A DNA stretch of 64,000 bases from assembly GCF_003945345.1 (NCBI RefSeq), contig NZ_AP019308.1, positions 4,295,501 to 4,359,500 on the forward strand. The letters run 5' to 3'. The stretch comes from Paenibacillus baekrokdamisoli. GTDB taxonomy: Bacteria; Bacillota; Bacilli; Paenibacillales; Paenibacillaceae. Below are positions 4,146 to 58,131 of this stretch, piece by piece. A model generated the notes under the pieces. The model saw only the letters and a program-made list of their open reading frames with translations. It was not told the origin of the DNA and searched no databases. The first letter of the stretch is position 1; the number at the start of each line of letters is the position of its first letter. Position numbers and translations under genes: made by a program.

Positions 4146-4147
4146 TC

Positions 4148-6019: not shown

Positions 6020-6156
6020 TGGTTAATTCTCCTTTAAACTAAAGAACATGTTATTTTTATAATTCAGAATACTTTTCATAATTCTCCGAGAATATTCCAT
6101 TCAGATTTTCCTGATTATCTTGAAATGTATTCCATGACAAACTTATAAAAAGTAAG

Positions 6157-6182
6157 TGTAAAAAACCTCCACTCGGAGGTTT
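6157..6182 (-). terminator. Rho-independent terminator of the Hachiman operon
   Basis: AAACCTCC-GAGT-GGAGGTTT hairpin read on the minus strand, followed by a T run. It lies ~100 bp past the HamB stop and separates the Hachiman operon from the McrBC-like operon. Confidence 0.7.
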
Positions 6183-6195
6183 AATGATAAAGTGT

Positions 6196-6275
6196 TGGTA
6201 GAGACTATCGGGATCAAACCGCCGAGCGCTTGCATGCCATGCAAGCGCTCTCCCGCAGTGGTTATTTCACTACCA
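6196..6275 (-). other. tRNA-Ala(GGC)-like relic containing a 27-bp near-perfect palindrome
   Basis: On the minus strand this reads like the middle and 3' part of a tRNA: GGGAGAGC, an anticodon arm CTTGC-ATGGCAT-GCAAG (anticodon GGC, alanine), a T-arm-like GGCGGTTTGATCCCG and a final CCA. The D-stem does not pair, the T-stem has a mismatch, and the 7-bp acceptor pairs at only about four positions, so I do not believe it is a working tRNA. Positions 6224-6250 form a 13+1+13 palindrome, and the outer ends TGGTAG/CTACCA also pair, so the whole element can fold as one long hairpin. It sits between two defence operons. The rest of 6020-6285 holds only the adjacent terminator. Confidence 0.5.
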
Positions 6276-6285
6276 AAAAAATAGA

Positions 6286-9791: not shown

Positions 9792-9977
9792 TAGTCAGTC
9801 CGCCTTCCATGTTGGGACTATCGTATTAATTATAATTCTATAGTACTACTTACATACCCATAATTCTACTTATTTTACCAATAAATTAGCTTCACTCACT
9901 TTCATATCCAACAAGGAGACATCTGCCAAAACAGACAAGCGGTGCTTATCAGACATGGACTTCAAATTTCTATTAAT

Positions 9978-10025
9978 AAAAGTAAAAAGAAGGCTCCTGC
10001 TTTGATTAAGCAAGAGCCTTCTTAC
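9978..10025 (-). terminator. Rho-independent terminator of the Wadjet operon
   Basis: Strong hairpin AAGAAGGCTC-TTGCTT / AAGCAGGAGCCTTCTT on the minus strand followed by TTTTTACTTTTATT. It sits ~125 bp after the JetC stop and upstream of hamA. Confidence 0.85.
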
Positions 10026-10148
10026 TATTCTGGTGTAAGTGCTGTTCAATCCTTTTATTAGTAGTGTTCTCTCTTATCCCTACACTACCAATAAAACCAA
10101 TGCATATGAGCGATACTGTCACATCTCATCTATTCTTTCAGCACCTTA

Positions 10149-13100
10149 TCATTTTCTTACCAGACCCGTAACTTTACTGCAGGGCACAGTTGGATCATGA
10201 TACACAATATACGCCTTGGAAAACCGGTCGAGGTACGAATTCTCGTGAGATTTTGGGGTAAGGATGATGAGCTTGCGCTGAAGCTCCCGTCCGTACAGAT
10301 CGAAGACCTTCAACTTACGCTGCTCATCCAGAGCGCTATCGAACTCGTCCAGAACAATAAAACCCGGAGCGGTCTGAAGATTTTGCAGCAAGGCGAGCGC
10401 AAACAGAAGGGAACTCAAGGATTCCTCGCCGCCGGATACGCCCTTCCCGACTTTGCCACCGCGAGCCTTGACACTAACATCTTCCAGTGTTCCTCGATGT
10501 CCTTCCTTGCGTGCTTTAATAAACAGATTAAAATGTGTCCTCCCCCGGCGATCCTCAAATTGATCCCACTCAATTTCTCCCTCGAATTGAAACAAGCTCA
10601 TATAGGATTTGAAGCGCTGCTGTATTTCAAGAACCCTCATGTTAATGGTTGTCTCCAACTGGTCCTTCAATTGACCGGTACGTTCCTGATCCTGCTCGAA
10701 CAAAAGGCTCGTCCGCTTATACTCATCCTGAAGACGATTATATTCCTCTTCAACCACCTTGTAGTTTTCTGGCGCTGCCGGATCGATACCCGTTTCATGT
10801 CGGGCATGGTCAAATTTCACTTTACCTGTTTCAAGGTTCGAACGGACTTGAGGTAAGGATGGAAACTGAAGCGAATTCAATGGCTGCTTATCATCATCAG
10901 AAAGTACTTCATTATAGATGTGCGAAGCTAACCGCTTGAACTCCTCCAGTTCCTGAATTACGCCCCTCTTTTCTCTGTTCACAGTATCAAGAGATTCGCT
11001 TCTTGACTTCAGTTGACTGGCAATCAGACTAAACTTTCGTACCTCGCTCTCCTGCTGATCCTGAATCTCCAGAAGCTTGCGCTGCTTTTTCCGTTTCTCA
11101 TTTTCCAGCTTGTCCAGTTGCTCCTCGATATTCTCGTAATCATGTTGCAGTTCTTTATGCTGATCATCTAAGTTTTGTAGGTGACACTGTTTGGCGGTCA
11201 ACGCTTCATATTTCTCCTTCTGCTGACCTAGTCTCACGTAAAATTCGGCTTCTCCATGTAGCTCGTTATGTTCATGTTCCAACTTCACTTGCTTTTTTAT
11301 TAGCTCTGTTTGATCTTGTCGCAGCTTCCGTATCTGCTCCAGCAGCTCCGTTCTTTTGTCTACTTCTTCTGCATACTTATTGACTATGCTAACCCGCTCA
11401 TGCTCCCTCGTCATAAAAGCTTCCGCTTCCCGAACTAATTGAATAATGCTATTCAACTCTTGCAGTTTCTTTGTAGCTTGACGGATCGACTCTTCACCTC
11501 TCTGAATCTTGAGGGACAATTCATAGATACTCTTCCCAATTTCTTCCTTGCGAGCGATAAGAGCACGTGTGCTCAAAATATAACGTTTCTTTTCTTGTGA
11601 ACCGCGAATCCCCATCGAATCTATCAGCATCCCATTTTCAATCCGAAGATCACCGTCCTTGAAAAACTGCTCTACCCACCACAGAGCCTTTACTGCATGT
11701 GGAAACTCCTCCTCCTCGTTCAGTCCTCCTTTCACCCGAAGCTGCAGCGACTTCAGCTCCGTTACTGAACGATCAGGCACCACCTTACGCAACGGTACAT
11801 GGTACAGGTCATTCGGAGCGGCAACCATATATCCATCAAAAAATATCGTGTACTTAATCGAATTAAAACGCTCTTCCAATTTGAGGTGTGCGGACTCGCT
11901 CAGCTCCACCAATTCACGTAAAGCATATGCCCTAATCCCTCTTCCATTGAAATATGCCAAAGAGTCCATTTGCCGCCGGGACCAATCGTGCTCATCATCA
12001 AGCCGAGCAAGTTCTTCTTCTAACTCACTCATGCTGTTCATATTCTTCAACCTATCATCCTTAGCCATGGAAATGGATTTATCCAGCCGTTCTAGCTCTT
12101 CCTGTACATAATGGCTACTCATATATTGACGAAGCCGCTCCTGATGCTCGATCTCCTTCACTTTATCCTGCTCGATTGCAGCCTCTAGTCTGGATATTCC
12201 GCGCGATAGATTCTCACTCTCAGTCTCATCTCTCTCGATATCAAGCTTCAGCTTAGCCTCTCGCTCAGCCGTATCAGTCATTTGTGAGGTAACGTGTGCT
12301 AACTGCTGCTTGACTTCCTCCTCCGTCCGAGTAATACGCTCCTTTTCTTTGCTGACATCCTGAAGCTCCAGCCCCAGCTGAGCAACAACCTTCTTGATTC
12401 CCCCCATTTCAGCATCAAGTGCTTGAAGCTGTTCTTCATATTGAGAATGTTCAGCTTTTAGCAGATTGATCCTCAGAAGTAAATCTATCAGCTGCTCTCC
12501 AACCTCAGCTGCACCCTCTTTTATTCCCACTATATGATCCTGCTGCTGTTCCTTATCAAGCTCAAGCTGCTCCAATTGGCTGCTCAACTGCTCTTGCTCG
12601 CGCTTATAATAGTCTTCCAAATGAAGCAGAGAACTGGCATACAATTTACCGCCTTCAAGCAAGCGCCGCTGATTGTCTTCATACCGATCAAGATCTGATT
12701 TCTTCATCTTTAACCCTTGCTTCTTATAAGCTACATTATTTTCAGCAACACGTAGTGTCTCCTGCGTCTCCTTCAGTTTCTCGATGCTCTCTTCCCAGTT
12801 GCGCTGCACCTGATCAATACCATGCATTTCTGCAAATATTCGAAATCTCTCCTCAGGGTGCATCACCGCAAACTGATTGACCTCCTGCTGATACCAGATG
12901 AGATAAAACATATCCGGATCGATCTTGTACTTGTACTGGAGATCCCTCTTATATCCAGTGAAATTGTACTGACGGTCGCCGGAGGTATATCGAACTACTT
13001 CCTCCCATGCCCGAATGTCGTCACCGGAGGAAATGACGAATTCCTTCTTGATCGGCTGTCCTGGCTCCTGAAGGATATAAAGTGCAAATTCAATAAACTC

Positions 13101-13367
13101 AGGTGCATCGATCCGTATATGACCCTCATTCTTAAAAAGCAACCTGATATGAGCCTTCCAGATCTCATCCGGTGCCAGATTGCGCGACCTTAGACCCTCA
13201 AGTTCAACCTTAGAAGAGTACAATACAGCCCCCATACAGTACGTTATCGTTGATTTTCCCGCTCCATTCGGCCCAGTAATAAGAACATGCTCTTCCTGTC
13301 CGGATAAATCCATTTTGGTACCCTCATAATCTCGAATGCCGCTAAACCACATTTGCCAAGGTATCAT
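10149..13367 (-). CDS. jetC: Wadjet JetC, SMC-like ATPase (MukB/MksB-type)
   Basis: 1072-residue SMC-type ATPase, the loop-extruding motor of the Wadjet plasmid-defence complex. Walker A is near the N-terminus (ITGPNGAGKSTITY, ~30-43). Long charged coiled coils (~200-520 and 620-800) flank a hinge-like globular part. The C-terminal head has the signature GVSGGEESLSSLLFALALL and Walker B FIVLDEFDSALDEQ. It starts 3 bp after the JetB stop (ATG 13367). Wadjet complexes recognise and cleave small circular DNA; JetC supplies the ATPase. Length is typical of a Wadjet/MksB rather than a chromosomal Smc. Confidence 0.92.
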   Translation of the reverse strand: MIPWQMWFSGIRDYEGTKMDLSGQEEHVLITGPNGAGKSTITYCMGAVLYSSKVELEGLRSRNLAPDEIWKAHIRLLFKNEGHIRIDAPEFIEFALYILQEPGQPIKKEFVISSGDDIRAWEEVVRYTSGDRQYNFTGYKRDLQYKYKIDPDMFYLIWYQQEVNQFAVMHPEERFRIFAEMHGIDQVQRNWEESIEKLKETQETLRVAENNVAYKKQGLKMKKSDLDRYEDNQRRLLEGGKLYASSLLHLEDYYKREQEQLSSQLEQLELDKEQQQDHIVGIKEGAAEVGEQLIDLLLRINLLKAEHSQYEEQLQALDAEMGGIKKVVAQLGLELQDVSKEKERITRTEEEVKQQLAHVTSQMTDTAEREAKLKLDIERDETESENLSRGISRLEAAIEQDKVKEIEHQERLRQYMSSHYVQEELERLDKSISMAKDDRLKNMNSMSELEEELARLDDEHDWSRRQMDSLAYFNGRGIRAYALRELVELSESAHLKLEERFNSIKYTIFFDGYMVAAPNDLYHVPLRKVVPDRSVTELKSLQLRVKGGLNEEEEFPHAVKALWWVEQFFKDGDLRIENGMLIDSMGIRGSQEKKRYILSTRALIARKEEIGKSIYELSLKIQRGEESIRQATKKLQELNSIIQLVREAEAFMTREHERVSIVNKYAEEVDKRTELLEQIRKLRQDQTELIKKQVKLEHEHNELHGEAEFYVRLGQQKEKYEALTAKQCHLQNLDDQHKELQHDYENIEEQLDKLENEKRKKQRKLLEIQDQQESEVRKFSLIASQLKSRSESLDTVNREKRGVIQELEEFKRLASHIYNEVLSDDDKQPLNSLQFPSLPQVRSNLETGKVKFDHARHETGIDPAAPENYKVVEEEYNRLQDEYKRTSLLFEQDQERTGQLKDQLETTINMRVLEIQQRFKSYMSLFQFEGEIEWDQFEDRRGRTHFNLFIKARKEGHRGTLEDVSVKARGGKVGKGVSGGEESLSSLLFALALLQNLQTAPGFIVLDEFDSALDEQRKLKVFDLYGRELQRKLIILTPKSHENSYLDRFSKAYIVYHDPTVPCSKVTGLVRK

Positions 13368-13369
13368 CG

Positions 13370-14104
13370 TTATGACTCCGTTCCTTCCTGATACAGGTTA
13401 TATCGTTTGAAAAATTTCAACACTTCTTCCTTGTTTAGCTGATTGGACTGACTGAATTCCACCATACGACGCAAGAAAGAATCCGAGAACATATGCACGC
13501 CAATCGCTGTAATTTGATAAGCCTTCTCAGGAGAATTCGTGTCGTATTCCTCAAGCGCCCCAATCTTCCGAAGCTGATCAATATTAAGCAGCAAGCGCTG
13601 ATTCGCCTTCGTAGTCTCATGCCCAAACGCATGTAGCAATTGATCAAAAAGTGTGAATTCATGCTGCAGCACCTCCTGCTGATAGAACATGAACAACAGA
13701 ATCGCCAGACTTTCCTTGGATAACGTACTGCGAGCGGCTCTAGCCGGAACTCTCATCATAACTACAACTTGATCTCGTTTCTCATCATAAATAACTTGAA
13801 AAAAGCGGCTTACCGCCTGATTGACCCGCTGCAAAAATGAATCAAATTTTTTATCCCCTTCTGAAATCCGCAGCAGCTTCTCAACCTCTCTTCTCGATAA
13901 ACCGAAATTACCGGCACGAATTGTAGCGGAAGAAGAAAACAAAATATTCATAAACGCCAGTTCCTCTTCTTCAGTCAACATCCCTTTCAGTGATTGCATC
14001 ACGTTGAGTGGATTAGTATTGAGACTCTCTAGGTATCCATCGGTATCCACTCGCTCCCGTGCAACTGCTCCCGCTTCGAAAAAGTTCGTTTCCTGCTCAG
14101 ACAT
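13370..14104 (-). CDS. jetB: Wadjet JetB, kite-like subunit (DUF4194/MksE-type)
   Basis: Small winged-helix (KITE) subunit that binds the kleisin JetA and the SMC heads. About 244 residues from the preferred ATG 14104, which has GGGGAGTGGAG upstream; an in-frame codon at 14122 gives 250 residues. Helical content, the size, and the position between JetA (8-bp overlap) and JetC (2-bp gap) identify it; no catalytic motif is expected. Assignment is mainly by size and synteny. Confidence 0.85.
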   Translation of the reverse strand: MSEQETNFFEAGAVARERVDTDGYLESLNTNPLNVMQSLKGMLTEEEELAFMNILFSSSATIRAGNFGLSRREVEKLLRISEGDKKFDSFLQRVNQAVSRFFQVIYDEKRDQVVVMMRVPARAARSTLSKESLAILLFMFYQQEVLQHEFTLFDQLLHAFGHETTKANQRLLLNIDQLRKIGALEEYDTNSPEKAYQITAIGVHMFSDSFLRRMVEFSQSNQLNKEEVLKFFKRYNLYQEGTES

Positions 14105-15560
14105 ATTCTCCACTCCCCTCATTCCTCACTATCTCGTCCAATCGTGCTCGGCTGCTTCGTTTCTTAATGAGTTTATTTCGATCATCACGACTCATCCACT
14201 CCCATTTTTTCTCATAAAGCGGCTGGTCAATCACTTTCTCCTTTGATGCCTCATCGATCGTTATTTTCTTGTTGCCGACCAAAGCTGCAATAGCAGTCAA
14301 CGAATTGATGGCATCACCCCATTCCGCGGAGGTTGCCTCGATCATCACCTGCTCCATCAGGGCTTCTTCGACCTGTTCCATATATCTTTCAATGGCGTCC
14401 GTCTGAATCATTGATTTCGTAAGCAACCACTGAGATTCCCCCATCAGCTCACCCAAGTGATCAATGGATATTTCCTCTTCCATATATATCACTTCCATCT
14501 CTTCTTCCCTTATCGGATCAGTCAAAGGCTCATACGCCTCCAGGTAATGAACGGATTCGCGGATAGCATCTGCCGATATGGGCGCAGCAAATTTAACGGG
14601 TACCCATAATCCGTCTGAGGATTCTCCTTCATACTGATCTTGCTCCATAAAGCTCATAAGCTGATGAGCGTTCGGTATATCCGATTCTAGTGGAGGATCA
14701 TACATCTTCAAGATGAATTCTCTTACCTTTTCAGGATTAATGGTGGATGAGAGCACCGTTTGCTGCATTGTCGTAAACTTTAAATATTTATTGATCATCC
14801 CAATACTAAGGTTCGTTCCCTCAGCGAGCACAGCCGTTCCTTGATGCATCAGATTGCTCAAAACGAGGCTATCCTCCAGCGTCTGGAATTGACGAAACCG
14901 CTCCTTTAGCTTCACCTCTAACTCCTGCATGAGCTGATGAATGATTTCAAGCTGGGGCAAAGCATTTCGATCAGCAAGCATCTCCAACTCCCGCTCATTC
15001 ATCAGCTTAATGGCATTCTCGACGTTTCGAATCATACTGGCAATTTTGTTGCCGCCCGATATACCGTGATCATCATAGGCCTCGCTGATCTCAGCATCTC
15101 GTCTGGCCTGAAACAGTGAGCGTCCAATATCGTCATGCATATAATAGGCAAGGGAATCGTTAGCGAGCCGAATAAGAGCATCCATCATTCGTTTACCAAC
15201 ATCCCGCATCTTCAGCTGCCTTGTTTGCTTGGAAATCCAGTTGTACTTGACGAGCACATTGATAATTTGCTCTACCTTTTTCCTGCTGGGAGGCTCCGGG
15301 TCGCTATAACGGTTCTTGTAGCGATAATACAGCGTATCCGAATTCTCGATCGGTTCGTCAAGCCCAAGCGCTTCTTCATTAATCAATTGAATAATCCGTA
15401 AGAACCGTAAAATTTCAGAAGGTGTTTGGAACGCATTCTGTGATCCCAGGTCACTCAGCACCCCTGATAAGTAAGTGATATCCCTCATCGACTGAAGCAT
15501 TTCGGGCGAGGACTCACTATTTTGAAAAATCGATATTAATGGTTGATCCACTGTCTCCAA
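14097..15560 (-). CDS. jetA: Wadjet JetA, kleisin-like subunit (MksF-type)
   Basis: 487-residue mostly helical, acidic protein matching the kleisin slot of Wadjet/MksBEFG. It is expected to bridge the JetC heads and hold JetB dimers. The start is probably TTG 15560 (GGGAGGCAGAGAT then TTG), inside the last codons of the JetD gene, giving a 25-bp overlap. The C-terminus overlaps JetB. No enzymatic motif is seen, as expected. Confidence 0.85.
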   Translation of the reverse strand: METVDQPLISIFQNSESSPEMLQSMRDITYLSGVLSDLGSQNAFQTPSEILRFLRIIQLINEEALGLDEPIENSDTLYYRYKNRYSDPEPPSRKKVEQIINVLVKYNWISKQTRQLKMRDVGKRMMDALIRLANDSLAYYMHDDIGRSLFQARRDAEISEAYDDHGISGGNKIASMIRNVENAIKLMNERELEMLADRNALPQLEIIHQLMQELEVKLKERFRQFQTLEDSLVLSNLMHQGTAVLAEGTNLSIGMINKYLKFTTMQQTVLSSTINPEKVREFILKMYDPPLESDIPNAHQLMSFMEQDQYEGESSDGLWVPVKFAAPISADAIRESVHYLEAYEPLTDPIREEEMEVIYMEEEISIDHLGELMGESQWLLTKSMIQTDAIERYMEQVEEALMEQVMIEATSAEWGDAINSLTAIAALVGNKKITIDEASKEKVIDQPLYEKKWEWMSRDDRNKLIKKRSSRARLDEIVRNEGSGEYV

Positions 15561-16861
15561 ATCTCTGCCTCCCCTAATATTAGCTCCTGCTCCAGCCGAA
15601 CTTCCTGAAGAAGAGCCCTCATATACTGTTGATAATTAGACCAATCTTTCATCACCTTGTGATCGTGACAAATCCATTTCAGCGTAAGAGGATACGCAGA
15701 AACCACTTCAGCCATTTCTCCAGCAATGAGAAGACCATCCTCATCGTAGTCGCTCCAGAAGATCACTTGACGAATGTGACTGTTTATTAGCGAATTATGG
15801 ATGAACCTCTTATGTGAGCTTCTCAGGTGACCATCTACACATACAATCAGTGAGCCTGTCTCCCGCAAAAAATCACGCTCGGCAGCCAACCGCGTCAAAA
15901 TCCCGCGATTCTCGACCAACCAGAGAGTCGTTGCATCCGTACTGTACTGATCCTGTGCGATAGAAAGATCCGTCAATGCATGAACAGGACCCGCCTGATA
16001 ACACGACCAATGCCCGCTCAGATGCCCCGCGAAATATAAAGGCGTAATCTTTCCAGGACTAATCAACCCCAAGATTTCCGCAGATTGCCCACTCCACTCC
16101 TCTAGAGAGCTGATAAATTCATCTTTGTAATCATCAAATGCTTTGGATCCTCCGATGCCGCCATAATATTGTGCTCCGATCTCTTTCCAATCGAACGCCG
16201 CTTTACAACTAGATATCATTATGAACGCCAGTAGAAATAATAAAAATTTGATCTTTTTCACCGTGCTCCAACTCAAAGGTAATAAGTCTGATCCAGCAAG
16301 CTCTTCAACCTTCCAATACATGCTGACTGACACATGATGCGTGAGTAGAGACAGAATGGCTTCTCGCTCTCTATTGTTACTAACCAAATCTTTTAGTACC
16401 TTTTGAGCTTCTAGCTGATAGCTCGCAAACTGTCTTATCCGCTCCTGCTGTTCTTGATCTATTTTATTCTGCAGATATACAAATAAACGGTAGCCCATCC
16501 GATAGTGAACTCGTTCTATCGTTCTCCCGTCTCGCTCAAAGCGCATTTCCTTCATAATCCATCCCATATTTATCCACTCAAAGGCTTGTAGATCATCTTC
16601 AATAATCGCTCGCTTACCGAGAGTCCATTTTAATAAAGGCATATCCGGGGTTTGATTATCCTCTTGCAAATGTGCAGTCAACGATAGCGTTAAAGTACCA
16701 ACCTTCCGGAAGGTACGTGCTGTCCATTTTACGATGCCGACTTCAACTACAGACGATGTAATTCTAGTATAATTATCTGTATCCAGTTGCTCGCCGCTTT
16801 TTATGATATACTGCGATACATATTCAAAGACGTTTTCTATTGCGATCACCATACCCCTCAC
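15536..16861 (-). CDS. jetD: Wadjet JetD, Toprim nuclease subunit (DUF2220/DUF2399-like)
   Basis: 441-residue protein with a C-terminal Toprim-type fold: an early acidic site (VENRGILTRLAAERDF), a hydrophobic strand SLIVCVDGHLRSSHKRF and the DxD-like VIFWSDYDEDGLLIAGE. In Wadjet, JetD is the topoisomerase-VI-related nuclease that cuts the extruded plasmid. The N-terminal half is winged-helix-like. It is the first gene of this operon; the common description is A-B-C-D, so the order here is D-A-B-C, which may point to a different Wadjet subtype. Start is uncertain among GTG 16861, ATG 16852 and GTG 16849. Confidence 0.85.
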   Translation of the reverse strand: MRGMVIAIENVFEYVSQYIIKSGEQLDTDNYTRITSSVVEVGIVKWTARTFRKVGTLTLSLTAHLQEDNQTPDMPLLKWTLGKRAIIEDDLQAFEWINMGWIMKEMRFERDGRTIERVHYRMGYRLFVYLQNKIDQEQQERIRQFASYQLEAQKVLKDLVSNNREREAILSLLTHHVSVSMYWKVEELAGSDLLPLSWSTVKKIKFLLFLLAFIMISSCKAAFDWKEIGAQYYGGIGGSKAFDDYKDEFISSLEEWSGQSAEILGLISPGKITPLYFAGHLSGHWSCYQAGPVHALTDLSIAQDQYSTDATTLWLVENRGILTRLAAERDFLRETGSLIVCVDGHLRSSHKRFIHNSLINSHIRQVIFWSDYDEDGLLIAGEMAEVVSAYPLTLKWICHDHKVMKDWSNYQQYMRALLQEVRLEQELILGEAEIWRQWINH

Positions 16862-48183: not shown

Positions 48184-48705
48184 GTAACACGGCGAGATGT
48201 CGCATGACTGAGATAAGCGATCAACACTATTAGTCTTTCCTGACCAACAGGGGTGAATTCGTTATCGTCTTTCCCTCGCGGCAAAAAAAGCCAAAGCCAA
48301 TGATCAAGCTCCAGCTCTGTTTGCAGTTGTTTGTATGCCTCTTTAACGTTTCTCGGAAAGGGCTCTTTGCACGGTTCTATGCAGTCTGCCCTGTTCAACG
48401 GGCTTCACGATGTAGTCATAGGCATTCACTTCGAATGCATCCGAGGCATATTCTTTGTAGGACGTGACAAAAATGATCTTCATCCGTCTGTCGCTCCCTC
48501 TTAATCGTTTGGCAAACTCAACACCATTCTCTCTTGGCATCCTAATATCCAGAAATATCAAGTCCACCTCATGATCCGCCAAATAGGAGAATGCGGTCGC
48601 AGTCTCTTGGAAGCTTCCCACAATCTCGATCTCAGCCACCTTAGCGAGCATCCGTTTCATAATGAAGTGCATGGCCTTTTCGTCATCGATAATTACGACC
48701 TTCAA
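48174..48705 (-). pseudogene. Response-regulator receiver with frameshifted C-terminus
   Basis: From TTG 48705 (AAGGAGGGG at 7 nt) a complete receiver is encoded: VVIIDDEKAM, D55-region LIFLDIRMPRENGVEF, FVTSYKEYA, YIVKPVEQGRL. That frame stops at 48343. A second frame on the same strand continues to 48174 (NVKEAYKQLQTELELDHWLW ... NEFTPVGQERLIVLIAYLSH), ending in what could be a helix-turn-helix. A single frameshift near 48345-48398 would join them. Alternatively the receiver is expressed alone. Confidence 0.6.
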
Positions 48706-48872: not shown

Positions 48873-51800
48873 TTAATCCAACGGTTGACTGACCAGCATG
48901 TGGTAAAGACCTTTAGCAGCCATTAGCTGCTCATGAGTACCTGACTCTGCAATAACCCCTTGATCCAGTACGAGAATGCGGTCCGCATGCCGGATGGTGC
49001 TTAGTCGATGCGCGATGATGAGGGTCGTTCGATCTTTGAGTATCGTACTCATATTCCGCTGAATCGTCCTCTCGGATTCATTGTCTAGCGCGCTCGTCGC
49101 TTCGTCGAATATCAGAATGCGCGGATTGCCGATCAGCGCCCTCGCAATAGCGATACGCTGGCGCTGCCCTCCGGACAAGCTCGCACCCCGCTCCCCAACC
49201 TGTGTATCGTAGCCATTCGGAAATGTCATAATGAATTCATGCGCTCCCGCAAGCATGGAAGCGGCCATCACCTCATCCATCGAAGCATCGGGAATTTGAT
49301 AAGCAATATTTTCATGAATCGTTCCGCTGAAGAGCCCCGCTTCCTGCTGTACGACTCCGATTTGCTTACGGAGCGTAGCGGCCTGCACCTGCTTCAGGTC
49401 GTGCCCGTCGATGCGAACCGTCCCGCTACTTGGCGCATATAGCTTAAGCAGTAGATTCGCCAGGGTCGATTTCCCTGACCCGCTTCGACCGACGATGGCA
49501 ATTGTCTGGCCCGGAGCCATGTCGAAGGAAATATTCTGCAGTACATTCTTCCCGTCGGAATCATAGCGGAACGATACGCGTTCGAATGCAATCATCCCCT
49601 GCAGCTTCGGCAGCGCTGTCAATCGGGTAGGATCGGGTTCCTCCTGCTCCGTCTCGAATACGTCGTCAAGCCGTTCCAAGGCAATGCGCACGCCTTGAAA
49701 CTGATCCCACATCCCGATTAAGCCAAGCGCCGCGCCCGTTACGAGCGCATACACCGCGCTGAAAGCCATCAGTTCCCCGACGGTCAGCTTCTCCCCGATA
49801 ATAAACTCGGCACCGGCGTACAGCACGGTTACGCCACTTAACGTTTGCAGCACTGTGGCAACGGAGCCGGAGAAGAGGCCGATTTTCCAACCCTTCATTT
49901 GGATGGCAATAGACTGGCGGAACTTGCTCTCCACTTTCTTTCGAACCTCGTCTTCAGCCGCGAGGGCTTTCACGGTACGCATGGAGCCGATGGTTTCCAC
50001 TAGCGCGTTCTGTAAGTCCACATCGGCTTGAAATTGCTTCCTGCTGTTGCGCTTCATCAGCGGAGTCACGATCAGCGTTAGCGCAATGAAGCATGGGATG
50101 AACGCCAGCGCGATCCAGGCCAGCGTCACGCTATAAGTGAACATAATGACCATGTATACGACGATCGTCATCACGTTCAACACGGCATTCATGCTGTTCG
50201 TGACGAGAAAATGACGGATGACCTGATTTTCCCCGGCGCGCGTCAAGATGTCGCCTACTTTCCGCGTGGCGAAGTAGCGCATAGGCAAGCGAAACACATG
50301 CCGATAGAAGCTCATGATCATGTCGATGTCTATTTTCGTGAATGTATTCGCAATGACCCATTCCCTGATCGATTGAACGAGTAAGGTCAACAGTGAGACA
50401 CCTAACATGACGATCAACATCACGTTCAGGTCGTCGTAATTTCCGCCGATAAGCACCCGGTCGATCACCTGCTGCGTAAACAGCGGGAGCGCCAGATTAA
50501 TGACTTGCAATAGCAAGGTCAAGCACACGAGATGGAACAACGCCTGCTTGCGGGGGGCAAAAAAAGCCCAGTAACGCCCAAAAGAAGGCTTCGACTCTTC
50601 TTGCTCGAAGAAAGCTTCGACAGGCTTCAGAAACACCGTGTTCAGCGTCCATCCCTTCAGAAAGTCTTCATGCGAATAAGTCAGTAAACCGATACCCGGG
50701 TCGGCCACCGTCACATATCGTTCGTCTACTTTGACGACCACGACATAATGATTGCCTTTCCAATGGGCAATAGCAGGCAGCGTCTGCTCAGCCAACCCCT
50801 TCAAGCTGCTGCGGACCGCCTCCGCTTGAAAGCCGATCGATTCCGCCGTTTTGCAGAGATTGAATAGCGTGCTTCCTTCCAAGCCTACTTGCGCCAGCTC
50901 TCTTAGCCGATGAATGCTCAGGCGCTTGCCGTAGTGCTGGGCGATCATGGAGAGACAGGTTGGCCCGCAGTCCAACTCGCTTTGCTGAATGCGCACCGGG
51001 AACCGGCTCCTTAAGCCCCAAGCCCTCCGACCGCCATCTCGCTGCCGCTTCTCTTGCTCGGCCTCTTCCGCAATGCTATCGGAAGCGTAACCTGCGCGAT
51101 CCTCTGCGGTAACGTTCACTTCCGTATTCCGAGGTGCATCCGCATGTTGTAAATAAGCAGAAGCGATACCGATAATCGTTTCCCTGACCTTCGGATATTT
51201 CATAATTAACTTGTCGAAATCGTTCTTGGCCAGGCTGAACACGGAAACCGCTTCGTCAGCTACGACGCTGGCCTTGCGAGGATCGCCGGTCAACAGCGCG
51301 AGCTCTCCGAAAAACTCCCCTGCCTTTACCGTATTAAGCTTCCGCCCTCCCTCACTTTCCTTCAGTACGGAAGCCGTACCGGAACGAAGAATATAGAAAG
51401 CGTCTCCTGCCTCCCCTTCACTGACGATCGCATGTCCAGGAGCATATTCCTTCATGACCATAATATCAAGCAGTGAGCGCAGCTCCTGATGATGCAGCGG
51501 GGCAAACAGCGCCGTCCGCTTCAAAAATTTGCGCATCGCATCATCGGCCAATTGTTCAAGCAAGTACACCCTCAATTCGGGGTGCGCGTCGATCATTTGC
51601 ATAAACATGGTTCTGGACAATCTTAGCAGCTTTAGCTTCGTCGACGCCCTCAGCGTATGTTCTTGAAATTCTTCATTCAGCAGCGCTTCCTGTCCGAAAT
51701 GTGAGCCTGATTCCATTACGCCTAAATTGAGCTCCTTGCCATCCTTATCCTTACCGATCATTCGCACTTTGCCCGTCAAGATGAGATGGAAGGAATCTCC

Positions 51801-51941
51801 TCGTTCCCCTGCCTGAATAATCGTGTCTCCCATATGGAAAGAAAGCTTCTCAAAGGAGGCAAATACCTCCTCTTTCTCCTGTGGCGACAGCACTTGAAAA
51901 ATAGGGATCGAATCCAAAATCATAGCATCTAAATCTAGCAT
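48873..51941 (-). CDS. C39-peptidase ABC exporter with two N-terminal cyclic-nucleotide-binding domains
   Basis: 1022-residue fusion. CNB1 (~10-125; GSHFGQEALLNEEFQEHTLR, lacking the phosphate-binding Arg) and CNB2 (~135-255; FFGELALLTGDPRKASVV, with that Arg intact) are followed by a C39 peptidase (~312-440) with Q319, C325 (QQSELDCGPTCLSM), H398 (KGNHYVVV) and D414 (VADPGIG). Then a six-helix ABC membrane domain (~465-745) and ABC ATPase (VGRSGSGKSTLANLLLKLY, LSGGQRQRIAIARALIG, ILIFDEATSALD). C39 exporters cleave after a double glycine and export the peptide; the adjacent gene encodes exactly such a leader. ATG 51941 has GGGAGG, 19 bp after the parvulin gene. No HlyD-type adaptor is nearby. 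Confidence 0.93.
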   Translation of the reverse strand: MLDLDAMILDSIPIFQVLSPQEKEEVFASFEKLSFHMGDTIIQAGERGDSFHLILTGKVRMIGKDKDGKELNLGVMESGSHFGQEALLNEEFQEHTLRASTKLKLLRLSRTMFMQMIDAHPELRVYLLEQLADDAMRKFLKRTALFAPLHHQELRSLLDIMVMKEYAPGHAIVSEGEAGDAFYILRSGTASVLKESEGGRKLNTVKAGEFFGELALLTGDPRKASVVADEAVSVFSLAKNDFDKLIMKYPKVRETIIGIASAYLQHADAPRNTEVNVTAEDRAGYASDSIAEEAEQEKRQRDGGRRAWGLRSRFPVRIQQSELDCGPTCLSMIAQHYGKRLSIHRLRELAQVGLEGSTLFNLCKTAESIGFQAEAVRSSLKGLAEQTLPAIAHWKGNHYVVVVKVDERYVTVADPGIGLLTYSHEDFLKGWTLNTVFLKPVEAFFEQEESKPSFGRYWAFFAPRKQALFHLVCLTLLLQVINLALPLFTQQVIDRVLIGGNYDDLNVMLIVMLGVSLLTLLVQSIREWVIANTFTKIDIDMIMSFYRHVFRLPMRYFATRKVGDILTRAGENQVIRHFLVTNSMNAVLNVMTIVVYMVIMFTYSVTLAWIALAFIPCFIALTLIVTPLMKRNSRKQFQADVDLQNALVETIGSMRTVKALAAEDEVRKKVESKFRQSIAIQMKGWKIGLFSGSVATVLQTLSGVTVLYAGAEFIIGEKLTVGELMAFSAVYALVTGAALGLIGMWDQFQGVRIALERLDDVFETEQEEPDPTRLTALPKLQGMIAFERVSFRYDSDGKNVLQNISFDMAPGQTIAIVGRSGSGKSTLANLLLKLYAPSSGTVRIDGHDLKQVQAATLRKQIGVVQQEAGLFSGTIHENIAYQIPDASMDEVMAASMLAGAHEFIMTFPNGYDTQVGERGASLSGGQRQRIAIARALIGNPRILIFDEATSALDNESERTIQRNMSTILKDRTTLIIAHRLSTIRHADRILVLDQGVIAESGTHEQLMAAKGLYHMLVSQPLD

Positions 51942-51960
51942 TCCCGAGCCTCCCGAACGA

Positions 51961-52746
51961 TCAGCCTAATGGCTCCCCTGCCAAATAGCCCCATAGTTTA
52001 ACATCGACTTCCGATCTTTTTACAGCTTCGTTCAGCCACTCTTCAAAAAGCAAATCGGCAAGCTTTAGCCGAACCTCCTCGGTCAGTTCAGCCGGAATGA
52101 CTTCCCAAACGTGCAGCAGCCGATAGAAAGAACCGAACGGAAAAGGTCCCACCGTTTGTCCGGCTTCCGAACCGAATACGGCCGCTTCTTCTTCACCGTT
52201 TAATTCGGCTCGACCAACCCACCCGAAGTATCCGCCGTCATACTTGCTGCTGCTGTTCAAACAATAGGTTTGCGCCAGCTTGTAGAACGGCTCGCCCTCC
52301 TCAAGCTGAAATAGCAGCTCTTGCGCCTGCTCCCTGCTGCCGATTACCAATTGAGAAACATTAGCTTTATCAAAGGAAAGTCGGTTTTCCAGAAAATAAG
52401 CATCTATCCGATCTTCCGATACGATACACTTCACCTTCTCTGTCAGAAGCTGGACTTTGGCCGACTCGAACAGATCGGCTGTCACCAACCCTCGCATACT
52501 CAGCCAAGCCAAGGTTTCTGCCGCGCTGTATAACCCCAATTGCTGCCGCATCTCACTCACTTTCGCTTTCCATTCCAGCTCATCGATTGATAGATTGTGC
52601 TGCTCAGCAAACTCCAGCGTAACGGCTCTTCGAATGCTATCCTCGATAGCGGTAAACCCGCCCTCCATGCACGCAAGTTTGAGTACATCGCGCAGACGCC
52701 ATTCCGCACCGTTCACGCTAAACGTTACAAGTTCCATAGCATCCAT
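51961..52746 (-). CDS. Cytosolic parvulin-type peptidyl-prolyl isomerase/chaperone
   Basis: 261 residues. The N-terminal ~130 are helical and SurA/PrsA-like (AVTLEFAEQHNLSIDELEWK); the C-terminal ~110 form a parvulin domain (ELLFQLEEGEPFYKLAQTYC, GGYFGWVGRAEL, AGQTVGPFPFGSFYRLLHVW). There is no signal peptide or lipobox, unlike PrsA, so it should act inside the cell, probably on the proline-rich precursor before export. Similar SurA-like genes occur in cyanobacterial double-glycine peptide clusters. ATG 52746 has AGAGGTG. It sits between the precursor and exporter genes. Confidence 0.85.
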   Translation of the reverse strand: MDAMELVTFSVNGAEWRLRDVLKLACMEGGFTAIEDSIRRAVTLEFAEQHNLSIDELEWKAKVSEMRQQLGLYSAAETLAWLSMRGLVTADLFESAKVQLLTEKVKCIVSEDRIDAYFLENRLSFDKANVSQLVIGSREQAQELLFQLEEGEPFYKLAQTYCLNSSSKYDGGYFGWVGRAELNGEEEAAVFGSEAGQTVGPFPFGSFYRLLHVWEVIPAELTEEVRLKLADLLFEEWLNEAVKRSEVDVKLWGYLAGEPLG

Positions 52747-52774
52747 AATAAGTCACCTCTTCACGTTGAAATAG

Positions 52775-52800
52775 AAAAAACCTAACGACAGTTAGGTTTT
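52775..52800 (-). terminator. Hairpin with T run between precursor and parvulin genes (attenuator)
   Basis: AAAACCTAAC-TGTC-GTTAGGTTTTTT on the minus strand. It probably lets the peptide gene be transcribed more than the export genes. Confidence 0.75.
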
Positions 52801-52866
52801 CCCATTTCAACAACTATTTTTACAAGAATCCATTCATCGCTACATGCTGAATATGTCGTTTGAGCT

Positions 52867-53202
52867 TTAGCTTGAACCTGGGATTTTGTTTGGTATTGAG
52901 CTTTGTTCGAATTTGGGTGGTGGAGTGAATTGTAATCCTGGGTTGGTTGGGATTACTACTGGCGGTAGTTTAGGACTGGCAATATAGCCAAACTGGCCTG
53001 CACTGAAATTGCTTGAACCGCTTGGATTGTTTACCCTGATCTGACCATCTAATACTTGTACGTAGAGTCCGGGGCTTAAGGGAAGTGTTGGGCTTAAGGG
53101 GGCTGTTGTCCCTCCTCCGGTTGTTTCTTTCATTTCCTGCTCCGTCAACGGCTTCTCCAAATCGTCAAGCTCAAAATCTTTTGATTCTTTGTCATTGGAC
53201 AT
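52867..53202 (-). CDS. Double-glycine leader peptide with FecR-like core (putative C39 substrate)
   Basis: 111 residues. The acidic leader ends in LTEQEMKETTGG (L19 at -12, E23 at -8, M24 at -7, G29-G30), a classic C39 cleavage signal. Cleavage would leave an ~81-residue, cysteine-free, proline-rich core. The core (GLYVQVLDGQIRVNNPSGSS, FSAGQFGYIAS, PGLQFTPPPKF) resembles a short beta-domain I associate with FecR-domain proteins of proteobacteria. No modification enzymes are nearby. ATG 53202 has GGGAGGA at 8 nt. It is first in an operon with parvulin and exporter. It could be a bacteriocin, a signal or a wall-associated peptide; the role is unknown. Confidence 0.8.
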   Translation of the reverse strand: MSNDKESKDFELDDLEKPLTEQEMKETTGGGTTAPLSPTLPLSPGLYVQVLDGQIRVNNPSGSSNFSAGQFGYIASPKLPPVVIPTNPGLQFTPPPKFEQSSIPNKIPGSS

Positions 53203-53416: not shown

Positions 53417-56400
53417 TTAAATCAATCCGGACTTTTGTAGAAGTTTCTGAATAATCGTGGCTACCTCTGCTCTCGTCATGTAAGCTTTCGGAGCAAGTTG
53501 GGAGCTGGTTCTCCCTGAAACGACCCCTGCTTGAACGCTGTCCGCAATGCTGCTTAGCGCCCAATTGGATGCATCTGCCGTATCCGCGTACGGTCGTAGG
53601 GTTGCGTCGGCCGATTGGACAGGCAGCTTGCTTTTCAACTCCGTGATTGTCATGGCTTTGGCGATCATCACCATGGCTTGTTCTCGGGTAATGTTATCGT
53701 TCGGACGGAACGTACCGTCTGCAAAGCCATTGATCAGATGATGCGCATAAGCTGTGTTTATCGCGCTGCTGTACCAATCCGCCGTCTTTACATCCGAGAA
53801 TGGCGTCGCTGCGTTTTCAAGCTTAAGGCCCAATCCCCGAACGATAATAGCTGCAAACTCAGCGCGGGTGACATTCCGGTCAGGGCTGAACTGCCCGTTG
53901 CCATTGCCGCTAATGATCATTCGCGATCCCATATCGTTGACAGCATTTTTAGCCCAGTGGTTCGCAACATCGTTAAATTCGAGCGGATGCCATACAACAG
54001 AGTACGTACTGTTGGTCAAGCTGTTCACTTTAGCGTAATACTTGCCGTCGATAAGCTCAATTTTAGTTGGCACATGGCGTACAGTTCCATCTGGATCGAC
54101 AACGACAGCAGTTGTAATATTGTTCGGGTCTACGCCATCTGGAATCGCAATCGTTCTTTCCACATAGGCGTTGAAATTCTCTACCTTGACCGTTGTGCCT
54201 CCATGTGTAGCGCTAACTGTAAACTCAACTGGCGGCGTGACAAGGGTAAACGTTCCTTTGGCTGCCGCATTCTCCACTACCTTCACCGTATCCGCTGTCG
54301 GTGCAGCGATTTCGATCTGCACCTTGATGTCTTGAAGAGCTACCGACTTCCCGACTTGATCGGATAGGGCACGGATGTTAATTTGATGTGCAGGGAGCGT
54401 ATACGTCGCTTTATCCGTTTGGATGACTAGAACCGCTTGCTTGTCTTCCATGTTTTTCACGATTTGACCGTTGAGTTCACCGACAACCACATCGGATTTG
54501 GCGTTCACCGGAATCGTAACCACGGCATGCTGGCCTACCGCCGCGAGCCTGTCATCCAGTTTCTTCTGGTCGAGAACGACCGTCGTTACCGTTTGACCAT
54601 TCTGCTTGGTTGTCGTTGCGGTTCCCGCACTCTCTACTTTTCCGTTGACGAGTATATCCACACCAGTAATCGTGGTCCCCGGTGTTGTTGTCGTCGATCC
54701 GGAAGGCGTGTTGCCGCTGGATGGCGAACTCGGGATGACGGCATTGGATACAGTGGAAGATTCGCTGCTTCCCTTGCCATTGATTGCCTTCACCGTAAAC
54801 GTATAGCTCGTTCCATTAGTCAGGCCTGTGAGGGTAATCGGACTTGTCATTCCGGTTATGACCGCGTTTCCTGGTGAAGCTGTCACCTCATACCCCGTAA
54901 TCGCACTTCCGCCATTGTCCGTTGGAGCCGTAAAGGTAATGGTGGCTTGCCCGTTTCCAGCGGCCGCCGTCACACCCGTTGGTGCTGCCGGAGCGGTTGC
55001 CGGAGTCGCGCTTGCCTGATTGGATTCCGCGCTCAAACCTCCCAAACCGCCTGCCTTCACCATAAAGTAATAGGTTGTTCCGTTGAGCAGATTGTCGACG
55101 TTATAGGTTACGTCAGTCACGGAAGTCATTTCGTCATCGCTAAATTGATTCGGAACATTCGACATATACAGATTGTAATAAGTCGCTCCCGTTACGGCAC
55201 TCCACTTCAGCGAAACCTGACGATCTCCTCCTGTAGCCAGAAGGTTCTGCGGATTCCCAGGAGCGTTCGGCAAGTTCACCGTTTGGGTTACTTTAAATGT
55301 CACATCCGTCATCTGACTTGCCGATACCGTGATTGTTGCGGTATACGTACCGGCTGGCAAGCCGTCTTTCGCTTGGACAGTAAAGCTTGTTGCGGGCGCT
55401 CCGCTGTTTAGAGTCGCGGTTGGTTGCGTGATCACAAAATCGTTCACATTTGTGCCGCTAAGCGTTGCCGACAGATTCGTCAAATGACCTGTACCGCTAT
55501 TCGTTACTTGGATGGTTGTTGTCTCTTGCGAACCTGATTCGTAACCTTGAGTAAGTGCAGTTGCCGTTTGATCGGCGATTGCACTAATCGTATAGGTAAG
55601 TGCTTCGTTAACTGTAATCTTGGCTGCGCTGCTCTTCGCCGTGGCCGTTTGACTGCCTATCGCGCTGCTATTCGTATTCGTTACGATGACATAGTAATAC
55701 ATCGTTCCCGTTGTTGCCGTCGGCGCTTCATACGATGCGTTCGTTGCGTTGCTAATCGCTGTGCCGTCGATATTGCTATTCGTCGTGTTGCTGTACCACT
55801 GGTAGCTCAGCGTTCCTCCGTCGCTCGACGTCGCCGCTACGGCCAAGACCGGGCTGGTGCCGCCTACGATCGCCGTCTGATCCTCCGGCTGTGTGCCGAT
55901 GGTCGGCGCTGCCGCATTCTGTCCGAACACGGCGACAGTTGTCGTCTTCGTGTCCGTCGTTCCGGCATCCACCCACGCGCTGCCGTCCCACGTTTGCTTC
56001 GCAAAAGTAGCCGTTACCGTATAGCTGCCTGCAGCTGTGGTCGTATAAGTGGAGCTGTAGATTCCTCCGCTTAAGCTGAAACTTCCAGATTTGCCGCTCT
56101 CCGTCGATGTCCAGCTTATCGGAACGAACCTTGCAGCGCCATTCCCCCCTCCCGTTGCCGACTGCCGGTCTCCCGTCGCCGTCAGCGTCACCGAGCCGCC
56201 TTCCAGGACACGGCCTGGGCTGGCACTGGCCCTATTGCTTGCTGCATCAGCTATCGTTTCCGCGAATGAAATCGTCCCGGAAAACCCCACCGCCACAAAC
56301 ATACCGTTGCCGTAGGCGACGCTAGAAAAACCAGCCGTGGTGACTAGTGGGACGCTCGTCCAGCTCGCTCCGTCGGTTGACGTCACAATCGGCATCGTTT

Positions 56401-58024
56401 TATCGCTCGTCACTGCCACAAATAGGCCGTCGCCGTAGGCGATGCTATAAAGATATTGCGTGGTACCCGATGTGACGCTTGTCCAGCTCGCTCCATCCGC
56501 GGAAGTCAATATGGTCCCATTGCTTCCTACTGCTACAAACTTGCCGCCGTCGTAGACGATCTTATTAAGCGAATTCGTGGTACCCGAAGTTCGGCTTGTC
56601 CAGCTCGCACCGTCCGTGGAGGTCAATACCACACCGCTCATTCCACCGCTCCCGACCGCTACAAATGTACCGCTGCCGTAGGCGATGCCTGACATCATGT
56701 TATAACCGCCACCCGTTTGGCTTGTCCAGCTTTGTCCATCCGCGGAAGTTAATAAGGTCCCGCTGCTTCCTACAGCCACAAACTTTCCGTCACCAAAAGC
56801 AACGCTATAAAGATAATTCGTGGTACCCGATGTGGCGCTTGTCCAGCTCGTTCCGTCCGCGGAGGTCAATATGGCCCCTTCGCCGCCCACTGCCACAAAC
56901 TTGCCGTTACCGTAGGCAGCCATGTTAAGCAGCTTCCTGGTATCCGTAATTTGTCTTGTCCAACTCGCTCCGTTCGTGGAGGTCAGAACCTGTCCATTGT
57001 TCCCCACCGCTACATACTTCTCGTTGCCGTAGGCGACGCCTGTAAGATATTCATTCGTTATGCTCAAGCTTGTCCAACTCGCTCCGTCAGCGGAGGTCAG
57101 GATCGTCCCGCTCGCCCCCACCGTCATAAACATGCCGTTGCCGTAGGCGACGTCAGTAAGAACGGTGTACGAACCCGACGTCCGGCTTGTCCAGGCCGCT
57201 CCGTCGGCGGAGGTCAGGATCACCCCGTCTCTTCCTGTTGCCACTAACGTTCCATTGCCAGAGGTGACTCCTTCAAGATCACTCGAGGTGCCCGACGTCC
57301 GGTTTGTCCAGCTCGTTCCATTAGCGGAGGTCAGGATCGTTCCGCTATCCCCCACCGCCACAAACTTGCCGCCGTCGTAGGTGACGCCATTAAGATATTC
57401 CGTAGTGCCCGGCGTACGGGATGTCCAGGTCGTTCCGTCCGCGGAAGTCAAGAGCACTCCATTGCTCCCCACCGTTACAAACACGCCGTTGCCATAGGCA
57501 ACATCAAAAAGAAATTTCGAAGTGCCCGATGTGCGTTTTGTCCAGTTCTTTCCATCCGCAGAAGTACTTATATAAGCACTGCCGCCATATGAGCCGCTAT
57601 GTCCCACTGCCACAAACGTACCGTTGCCGTAGGTGACACCAAAAATAGGTAGATCGGTGGTATTCGAATCGCGGCTTGTCCAGGTCTCCGCATCAGTGGA
57701 AGTGACGATCGCTCCGTTCGTGCCTACCGCGACATATGTGTTATTGCCGAAGGTGACATCATCAAGGCGTTGATTAGTGCCTGACGTGCGTCTTGTCCAA
57801 TTCACTCCATCACTGGAGGTCAGGATCGTTCCCACTTCGTCCACATTGCCCCCCACTGCCATAAACATGCCGTTGGCGAAAGTGACGGAACTCAAATACT
57901 CACCCGTGACTTTTGGACTCACCGTATTCCAATTGCTGAGAGCAGCCGCAGCCGCAAAAGTAGGGATCAGTCCTGCTACAAGAAACAACACCGTTAATAC
58001 AGAGATAGAACGTTTGATCATCAT
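53417..58024 (-). CDS. SLH-anchored surface protein with 14 YCF48/BNR-like repeats and fibronectin III domains
   Basis: About 1535 residues from ATG 58024 (AAAGGTG at 6 nt). Signal peptide (MMIKRSISVLTVLFLVAGLI ... FAAAAA). Fourteen ~40-residue blades follow (VAYGNGxFVAVGxxGTILTSADGxSWTSRTSG), i.e. BNR/YCF48-type beta-propeller repeats, probably two propellers. Then an Ig-like region (~600-700), further Ig-like modules, fibronectin III domains (~960-1130), a domain that is also found in the giant SLH protein, and three C-terminal SLH domains (FNDVANHWAKNAVNDMGSRM, FSDVKTADWYSSAINTAYAH, YADTADASNWALSSIADSVQ). It would be bound to the cell wall. It lies upstream of the peptide-export operon but is separated by a strong terminator. 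Confidence 0.9.
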   Translation of the reverse strand: MMIKRSISVLTVLFLVAGLIPTFAAAAALSNWNTVSPKVTGEYLSSVTFANGMFMAVGGNVDEVGTILTSSDGVNWTRRTSGTNQRLDDVTFGNNTYVAVGTNGAIVTSTDAETWTSRDSNTTDLPIFGVTYGNGTFVAVGHSGSYGGSAYISTSADGKNWTKRTSGTSKFLFDVAYGNGVFVTVGSNGVLLTSADGTTWTSRTPGTTEYLNGVTYDGGKFVAVGDSGTILTSANGTSWTNRTSGTSSDLEGVTSGNGTLVATGRDGVILTSADGAAWTSRTSGSYTVLTDVAYGNGMFMTVGASGTILTSADGASWTSLSITNEYLTGVAYGNEKYVAVGNNGQVLTSTNGASWTRQITDTRKLLNMAAYGNGKFVAVGGEGAILTSADGTSWTSATSGTTNYLYSVAFGDGKFVAVGSSGTLLTSADGQSWTSQTGGGYNMMSGIAYGSGTFVAVGSGGMSGVVLTSTDGASWTSRTSGTTNSLNKIVYDGGKFVAVGSNGTILTSADGASWTSVTSGTTQYLYSIAYGDGLFVAVTSDKTMPIVTSTDGASWTSVPLVTTAGFSSVAYGNGMFVAVGFSGTISFAETIADAASNRASASPGRVLEGGSVTLTATGDRQSATGGGNGAARFVPISWTSTESGKSGSFSLSGGIYSSTYTTTAAGSYTVTATFAKQTWDGSAWVDAGTTDTKTTTVAVFGQNAAAPTIGTQPEDQTAIVGGTSPVLAVAATSSDGGTLSYQWYSNTTNSNIDGTAISNATNASYEAPTATTGTMYYYVIVTNTNSSAIGSQTATAKSSAAKITVNEALTYTISAIADQTATALTQGYESGSQETTTIQVTNSGTGHLTNLSATLSGTNVNDFVITQPTATLNSGAPATSFTVQAKDGLPAGTYTATITVSASQMTDVTFKVTQTVNLPNAPGNPQNLLATGGDRQVSLKWSAVTGATYYNLYMSNVPNQFSDDEMTSVTDVTYNVDNLLNGTTYYFMVKAGGLGGLSAESNQASATPATAPAAPTGVTAAAGNGQATITFTAPTDNGGSAITGYEVTASPGNAVITGMTSPITLTGLTNGTSYTFTVKAINGKGSSESSTVSNAVIPSSPSSGNTPSGSTTTTPGTTITGVDILVNGKVESAGTATTTKQNGQTVTTVVLDQKKLDDRLAAVGQHAVVTIPVNAKSDVVVGELNGQIVKNMEDKQAVLVIQTDKATYTLPAHQINIRALSDQVGKSVALQDIKVQIEIAAPTADTVKVVENAAAKGTFTLVTPPVEFTVSATHGGTTVKVENFNAYVERTIAIPDGVDPNNITTAVVVDPDGTVRHVPTKIELIDGKYYAKVNSLTNSTYSVVWHPLEFNDVANHWAKNAVNDMGSRMIISGNGNGQFSPDRNVTRAEFAAIIVRGLGLKLENAATPFSDVKTADWYSSAINTAYAHHLINGFADGTFRPNDNITREQAMVMIAKAMTITELKSKLPVQSADATLRPYADTADASNWALSSIADSVQAGVVSGRTSSQLAPKAYMTRAEVATIIQKLLQKSGLI
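56240..57945 (-). repeat. Fourteen ~120-bp coding repeats (BNR/YCF48-like blades)
   Basis: In-frame repeats of ~40 codons with conserved AVG, TSADG and SWTS cores. Several adjacent copies share long DNA identity, suggesting ongoing expansion. Confidence 0.88.
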
Positions 58025-58131
58025 ACCACTCACCTTTCGCTATTATTCGACCCGATTAATTTATGTACAGGTCAAATATCGTCTTTATTCGACATTATAC
58101 TCAGCCATCTTGAACCGAATTTGAACATAAC

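Follow-up and report, generated by a model that had tools for sequence, protein, structure and literature searches.

What does a small three-gene operon of Paenibacillus baekrokdamisoli export, and is it defined by its cargo or by the tag that the cargo carries? The operon lies in a stretch of 64,000 nucleotides (the window; NCBI RefSeq assembly GCF_003945345.1, contig NZ_AP019308.1, positions 4,295,501 to 4,359,500) of a 7.26-Mb genome (genome G000). Its genes, all on the minus strand, encode a double-glycine (GG) peptide, a SurA/PrsA-like protein and an exporter with two cyclic-nucleotide-binding (CNB) domains, a C39 peptidase domain and an ATP-binding cassette (ABC) transporter (Table 1). 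A first-pass annotation, made by a model from the DNA letters, had located these open reading frames correctly. Our analysis favours, with a probability of about 0.6, a cassette for peptide export that is self-contained and moves horizontally; the core of the peptide would most likely become a small protein of the cell wall, S-layer or matrix.

We surveyed 394 Paenibacillaceae genomes, scoring the best six SurA-like and the best four exporter candidates of each. With the SurA-like profile, 16 genomes yielded 18 full-length proteins, none with an E value above 2.4e-86; below these came a gap, then two fragments (1.6e-36 and 1.2e-35, in G184 and G197) and PrsA-type frames of greater length, the best at 8e-33. 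A query made of the first 450 residues of the exporter recovered 17 nearly complete exporters, distributed over exactly these 16 genomes, and pieces in G360 and G094; such a coincidence exceeds chance. The exporter gene was directly downstream of the SurA-like gene in 17 of the 18 loci and a GG leader adjoined 15 of them, the exceptions being L038, G160 and G033, so that the proposal of a GG-peptide export cassette was borne out. When 148 genomes of the family were drawn as a control, matches to the leader profile fell in eight that carry the cassette and in one that lacks a complete one, G094 (E 4.6e-4), in which there is also an exporter fragment. No other gene family was common to more than 5 of 19 loci (flanking frames of at least 100 amino acids), and the cassette is thus self-contained, with flanks that differ from locus to locus. 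Comparison of the exporters showed 87% identity of the window's to that of G141, from another genus, and about 82% to that of G087, from the same genus; since the cassette of the other genus is the closer one, horizontal transfer is suggested. Two cassettes (L138 and L139) have decayed: their SurA-like and exporter genes are in fragments, while the leader peptide survives. Searches of an open-access library turned up no description of the Paenibacillaceae cassette.

The window leader, MSNDKESKDFELDDLEKPLTEQEMKETTGG, has L19 (-12), E23 (-8), M24 (-7) and G29-G30 ahead of the 81-residue core, all as first described, and the cut probably falls after G30. Precursors were kept when their match to the leader profile had an E value up to 0.03 (28 of 43, the window included; two belong to the decayed cassettes of G184 and G197), while 15 with E values of 0.1 to 0.9 were dropped. 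The 28 cores, 26 of them distinct, ranged from 3 to 84 residues; all were free of cysteine and net positive, and 25 had a negative grand average of hydropathicity. Between the window and G141, the synonymous divergence (dS) was 0.63 for the leader, 0.74 for the SurA-like gene and 0.71 for the exporter, yet the cores were unrelated. As the three conserved parts diverged alike, a swap of the core at the GG boundary is probable. On this pattern of conserved leaders and swapped cores, the cargo does not define the cassette: the leader would act as a fixed address tag and the core as an exchangeable load.

The precursors themselves were arranged in several ways. Two stood in tandem in L042, L044, L134 and L135 and were divergent in L045. 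The tandem pairs of L042, L134 and L135 combined two core types (AGxGKL... and xGxNR...), resembling a two-peptide system. Leader genes away from the exporter gave three matches in G160 and four in G033; these orphan GG precursors (L170 to L176) have short basic cores such as GGRIKRRGR and WGRQRRRNF. The tripeptide RFI was the entire predicted core in three genomes (L035, 10363-10584; L036, 9400-9546; L037, 8933-9079), and other very short cores were KRYSY in L034 and KRAL in L138.

The exporter has the architecture of a peptidase-containing ABC transporter (PCAT), with two cNMP_binding stretches, Peptidase_C39, ABC_membrane and ABC_tran found by Pfam in one protein. Its C39 residues Q319, C325, H398 and D414, reported as intact, were kept in all 18 aligned exporters. 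A GG-leader peptide is encoded beside it, as expected of a PCAT substrate, and cleavage is predicted; export by this PCAT is likely. Against the NHLP exporter model TIGR03796 the protein scored 543.8 bits, under the curated cutoff of 853.3. The second CNB domain retains a phosphate-binding motif of the FGELALL..R type in 15 of the 18 exporters (not in L134 to L136), and the first looked degenerate by eye in many of them. Gating of the exporter by a nucleotide through a CNB domain is plausible by analogy, because the CNB domain of HetC bound guanosine tetraphosphate in vitro and was required in the work as cited (PMC10986499).

The SurA-like protein matched Pfam Rotamase (1.4e-8), and its structure model (mean predicted local distance difference test score, 90) matched PrsA and SurA; the modelled parvulin part was near the first parvulin domain of SurA (2pv1, 1.6 A over 91 residues) and 3gpk (1.6 A over 100 residues). 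No hydrophobic stretch was seen by eye at its N-terminus, in agreement with the description of a parvulin without a signal peptide encoded between the peptide and the exporter. A pair of histidines forms part of the parvulin active site, and the first parvulin domain of SurA is an inactive peptide binder. The histidines aligned to those of the PrsA motifs ASH and GYH were present in 0 (first) and 1 (second) of 19 SurA-like proteins, and both were present in 7 of 8 PrsA proteins (PrsA_L020, a wrong reading frame, was left out); the window protein has Q and R at these sites. Since the parvulin fold was kept and the histidine pair of an active peptidyl-prolyl isomerase was lost, the protein is more probably a chaperone than an isomerase. 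The idea of a folding helper acting before export retains its cytosolic SurA-like partner, with isomerisation less likely than chaperoning.

We then compared the window core with its relatives. With 15 prolines and no cysteine in 81 residues, it is the cysteine-free, proline-rich cargo that had been described. It occurred in six of the 394 genomes and bore a GG leader only in G000 and G087. In G376, G041 and G185 it lay within proteins of the S-layer-homology (SLH) type, and in G012 within a broken gene of this type; SLH was assigned by Pfam in L059 (the G376 protein) and L075 (of G041) and by eye in G185 and G012, and G376 and L059, apparently one genome, were counted once. A scan of GTDB contigs with two peptide patterns, which sets a lower bound on the relatives of the core, gave at least 14 loci, 13 of them in Burkholderiales and one in Paenibacillus glycanilyticus. 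The same module, up to 74% identical and with no GG leader, was C-terminal in FecR proteins of Burkholderiales two-partner secretion. It formed the C-terminal part of a FecR-type frame, after the FecR-homologous region, in 10 of the 13 Burkholderiales loci, and 12 of the 13 (not Pandoraea, L057) had a FecR homologue with FhaC and/or filamentous-haemagglutinin homologues within about 6 kb. In L049 and L056, where its gene is just after FecR, and on a Variovorax plasmid (L047), the module is a small protein of its own, whose start looks Sec-type by eye. The Pfam FecR model was applied to L048 and L060 (in the L048 protein it matched residues 63-151, upstream of the module), and the remaining FecR assignments were tblastn matches to a Variovorax FecR protein.

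The first-pass annotation had called the core FecR-like. The Burkholderiales loci narrow this label to FecR-associated; its identity as a FecR domain proper was set aside, as there was no Pfam or profile match and the model was poor. Pfam gave nothing credible for the peptide, with no FecR match (PF04773) up to E 1, and comparison of core profiles with Burkholderiales FecR domains gave no match with shallow alignments (effective number of sequences, about 2). A search of PDB sequences with the peptide reached a best E value of 0.0068 with no single stretch passing, and one with a profile reached 0.17. Judged by its relatives, the core is a FecR-associated module, captured cargo rather than a hallmark of the cassette, because it carries the GG leader in two genomes only and sits elsewhere in SLH or FecR proteins. 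The expectation that homologues of the peptide always sit beside CNB-C39 exporters and parvulins failed for the core, which was mostly away from C39 exporters (no C39 search was made at the Burkholderiales loci). Unlinked homologues had been named in advance as a sign against the proposal; this applied to the core and not to the leader.

An attenuator had been placed after the peptide gene, and a hairpin with a U-run is indeed present there. The folding z-scores in six of the 15 loci with adjacent peptides were -3.2 (window), -4.2 (L032), -1.7 (L033), -5.5 (L042), -1.2 (L039) and -2.5 (L036), and the stem CCUAAC/GUUAGG was common to the window, G141 and G087. A simple terminator scanner did not report the window hairpin, and promoter and terminator sites were no more numerous in the window than in shuffles. 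As a partial terminator, the hairpin would probably cause the precursor to be made in excess of the SurA-like protein and the exporter. The cytosolic SurA/PrsA-like protein would then bind the precursor and keep it export-competent or hand it over, the C39 domain would cut after the leader GG, and the ABC part would carry the core through the single membrane, the operon encoding no HlyD partner, while the second CNB domain may gate export through a nucleotide ligand. No HlyD adaptor or immunity gene had been obvious at the locus, and we likewise found no HlyD-type gene in the window and no widely shared immunity candidate; the genome has five PF13437 and nine PF13533 matches, the nearest about 0.7 Mb away. 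A surface, wall or matrix role is the most likely one for the window core, since its module elsewhere sits in Sec-type surface proteins, and we consider this role moderately likely.

Several observations weigh against a tightly defined export cassette with a surface cargo. The window core may not represent the family, as 26 of the 28 cores have at most 54 residues and its 81 are atypical. Its cut site is less canonical, with a T at position -4 (V in most relatives) and a third G after G30 that makes a GGG run. Its AlphaFold model had low confidence (predicted template-modelling score, 0.24), with three strands (residues 47-67) and an extended proline-rich tail, and no branch was well supported in the tree made to trace the origin of the core. 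At L038 the SurA-like gene has neither an adjoining exporter nor a leader peptide, and G693, a member outside the family, has a different gene order, and a weak leader candidate (E 1.3) whose core contains a cysteine. Three of the seven distant leader matches of G160 and G033 are weak (E about 0.02), and the strength of the hairpin was not significant in L033 and L039. The SLH gene next to the operon was rejected as a partner, as other cassettes have no conserved SLH neighbour.

The alternative that survives best is peptide signalling, in which the cores, for the most part short, basic and hydrophilic, would be exported as pheromones or morphogens and the window core would be an unusual member. 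Cores of 3 to 20 residues in many loci, scattered orphan precursors that share a single exporter in G160 and in G033, and purifying selection on the RFI-core precursors (ratio of nonsynonymous to synonymous divergence, dN/dS, 0.03-0.27 across the whole precursor) all point this way, and HetC, with CNB and C39 domains, is proposed in the cited account to export a signal (PMC10986499). However, no receptor or regulator was widely shared beside the cassettes, and neither these nor any shared neighbour were evident by eye beside the orphans; the window core matches surface-protein modules rather than short signals, and the role of HetC in PatS export is disputed in the cited part of another report (PMC4133259). 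We consider signalling unlikely for the window cargo, with a surface or matrix role ahead of it there, and a genuine contender for the family taken together.

A bacteriocin or other ribosomally synthesized and post-translationally modified peptide (RiPP), with enzymes and immunity encoded elsewhere and a SurA-like protein that aids a maturase as MirC aids a graspetide synthetase, is improbable. It gains from TIGR04500, the family of MirC, to which 15 of 15 SurA-like proteins show a match and which is the best NCBIfam hit of the window's, from the cited finding that MirC is needed together with MirB (PMC13097080), and from the name of bacteriocin clusters given to the cyanobacterial relatives in the text cited (PMC3140520). 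However, the window protein scored 61.7 bits against a cutoff of 180, over profile positions 91-335 of 340, and falls outside the family as a full-length member. As the matches start only at positions 89-120 in the eight SurA-like proteins seen, these lack the N-terminal domain that MirC needs. All 28 cores are free of cysteine, and no tailoring or immunity gene is widely shared in the 19 loci, for which reasons a modified RiPP with local enzymes was discarded as the leading explanation. Least probable of all is that the core is an unexported accidental fusion or relic and the real cargo is encoded elsewhere, as just 2 of the 394 genomes place the module behind a GG leader and other strains have leader genes away from the exporter, whereas dN/dS against G087 is low in core (0.22) and leader (0.14) and only one leader gene was detected in the window genome.

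Comparison of the peptide-export cassette with known systems showed that the nearest described kind are the cyanobacterial groups I, II and VI of 2011, in which, as far as the cited account goes, SurA is paired with long (CAP_ED) C39 exporters and GG precursors have very variable cores (PMC3140520). Calling the system undescribed was thus too strong, and what is new here, by gene content, is a Paenibacillaceae variant of the SurA and long C39 exporter cluster. The CNB-C39 exporter, SurA and GG precursor are shared with group I, unlike the HlyD gene of that cluster; the host, the compact peptide-SurA-exporter order and the 28 cysteine-free cores also differ from the clusters in that account, and further particulars are the orphan precursors and a cargo module of the surface type. 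SurA-like proteins were also found near CNB-C39 exporters on cyanobacterial, Caballeronia and Burkholderia stagnalis plasmids. HlyD was annotated in the three cyanobacterial records read (L064, L065 and L067), the other records being unannotated there; pattern-based leader candidates were seen in L065 and L067, and the leader profile gave no match near the exporters of Caballeronia and Burkholderia. On the Nostoc plasmid L065, four near-identical tandem GG-type peptides (13748-14854) share a stretch with CNB-C39 exporter, HlyD and SurA-like genes.

MirC of graspetide clusters, too, is related to SurA and has a precursor peptide and a PCAT for neighbours, whereas its N-domain, which weakly resembles a RiPP recognition element, and the graspetide synthetase with which it works in the cited description were not found here, and the parvulin fold is intact here (PMC13097080). 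HetC of Nostoc/Anabaena resembles the exporter in its CNB, C39 and ABC parts and in having no membrane fusion protein gene nearby; it differs, within the cited parts of its reports, in a single described CNB domain, a cargo given as unknown, no nearby GG peptide gene and no mention of a SurA-like partner (PMC10986499, PMC4133259). The best functional precedent for a non-killing surface or matrix cargo, by analogy, is EbfG1-4/PteB of Synechococcus elongatus, small GG non-bacteriocin proteins that are exported by a C39 transporter to the surface and matrix according to the passages cited (PMC4997328, PMC9981879). This likeness is one of description; the system has an extra peptidase, EbfE, and the word isomerase is absent from PMC4997328.

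Table 1. Features of the operon and its SLH neighbour (window positions).
Feature	Position	Strand	Remarks
GG precursor peptide, 111 residues (leader 1-30, core 31-111)	52867..53202	-	Leader profile E 1.6e-12
Leader, residues 1-30, ending in GG	53113..53202	-	dN/dS 0.14 vs G087, 0.24 vs G141
Core, residues 31-111; FecR-associated proline-rich module	52870..53112	-	dN/dS 0.22 vs G087
Hairpin with U-run in the gap between the peptide and SurA-like genes	52765..52811	-	z -3.2; likely partial terminator
SurA/PrsA-like protein, 261 residues; helical chaperone part and parvulin fold without the histidine pair	51961..52746	-	
CNB-CNB-C39-ABC exporter, a PCAT with two N-terminal CNB domains, 1022 residues; catalytic residues intact	48873..51941	-	
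SLH surface protein with fn3 domains, 1538 residues; neighbour	53417..58033	-	Only possibly related to the cassette

Downstream of the exporter, a stand-alone receiver domain of 120 residues (48343-48705) was seen, which is not at the same place beside most cassettes. A defence island (3420-16861) elsewhere in the window holds Wadjet JetD/JetA/JetB/JetC (10149-16861), Hachiman HamA/HamB (6286-9791), a Schlafen-type helicase and an Mrr-like nuclease.

A broader reading, which we put forward as tentative, sees the cassette as an all-purpose export platform: a constant GG leader on foreign cores, a histidine-less chaperone, a nucleotide-gated PCAT and a one-membrane route would be combined with exchange of cargo through recombination at the GG boundary. 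If it is true, the platform would carry peptides as short as RFI as well as small structural proteins, including a surface module otherwise seen in SLH proteins or, in another phylum, next to two-partner secretion genes, and the range of Gram-positive C39 exporters would extend past bacteriocins and pheromones to surface-type modules. Export tags would then be movable between unrelated cargo, and the cassette would offer a compact three-gene model for two questions, namely the role of SurA-like partners beside exporters and the ligand of the CNB domains.

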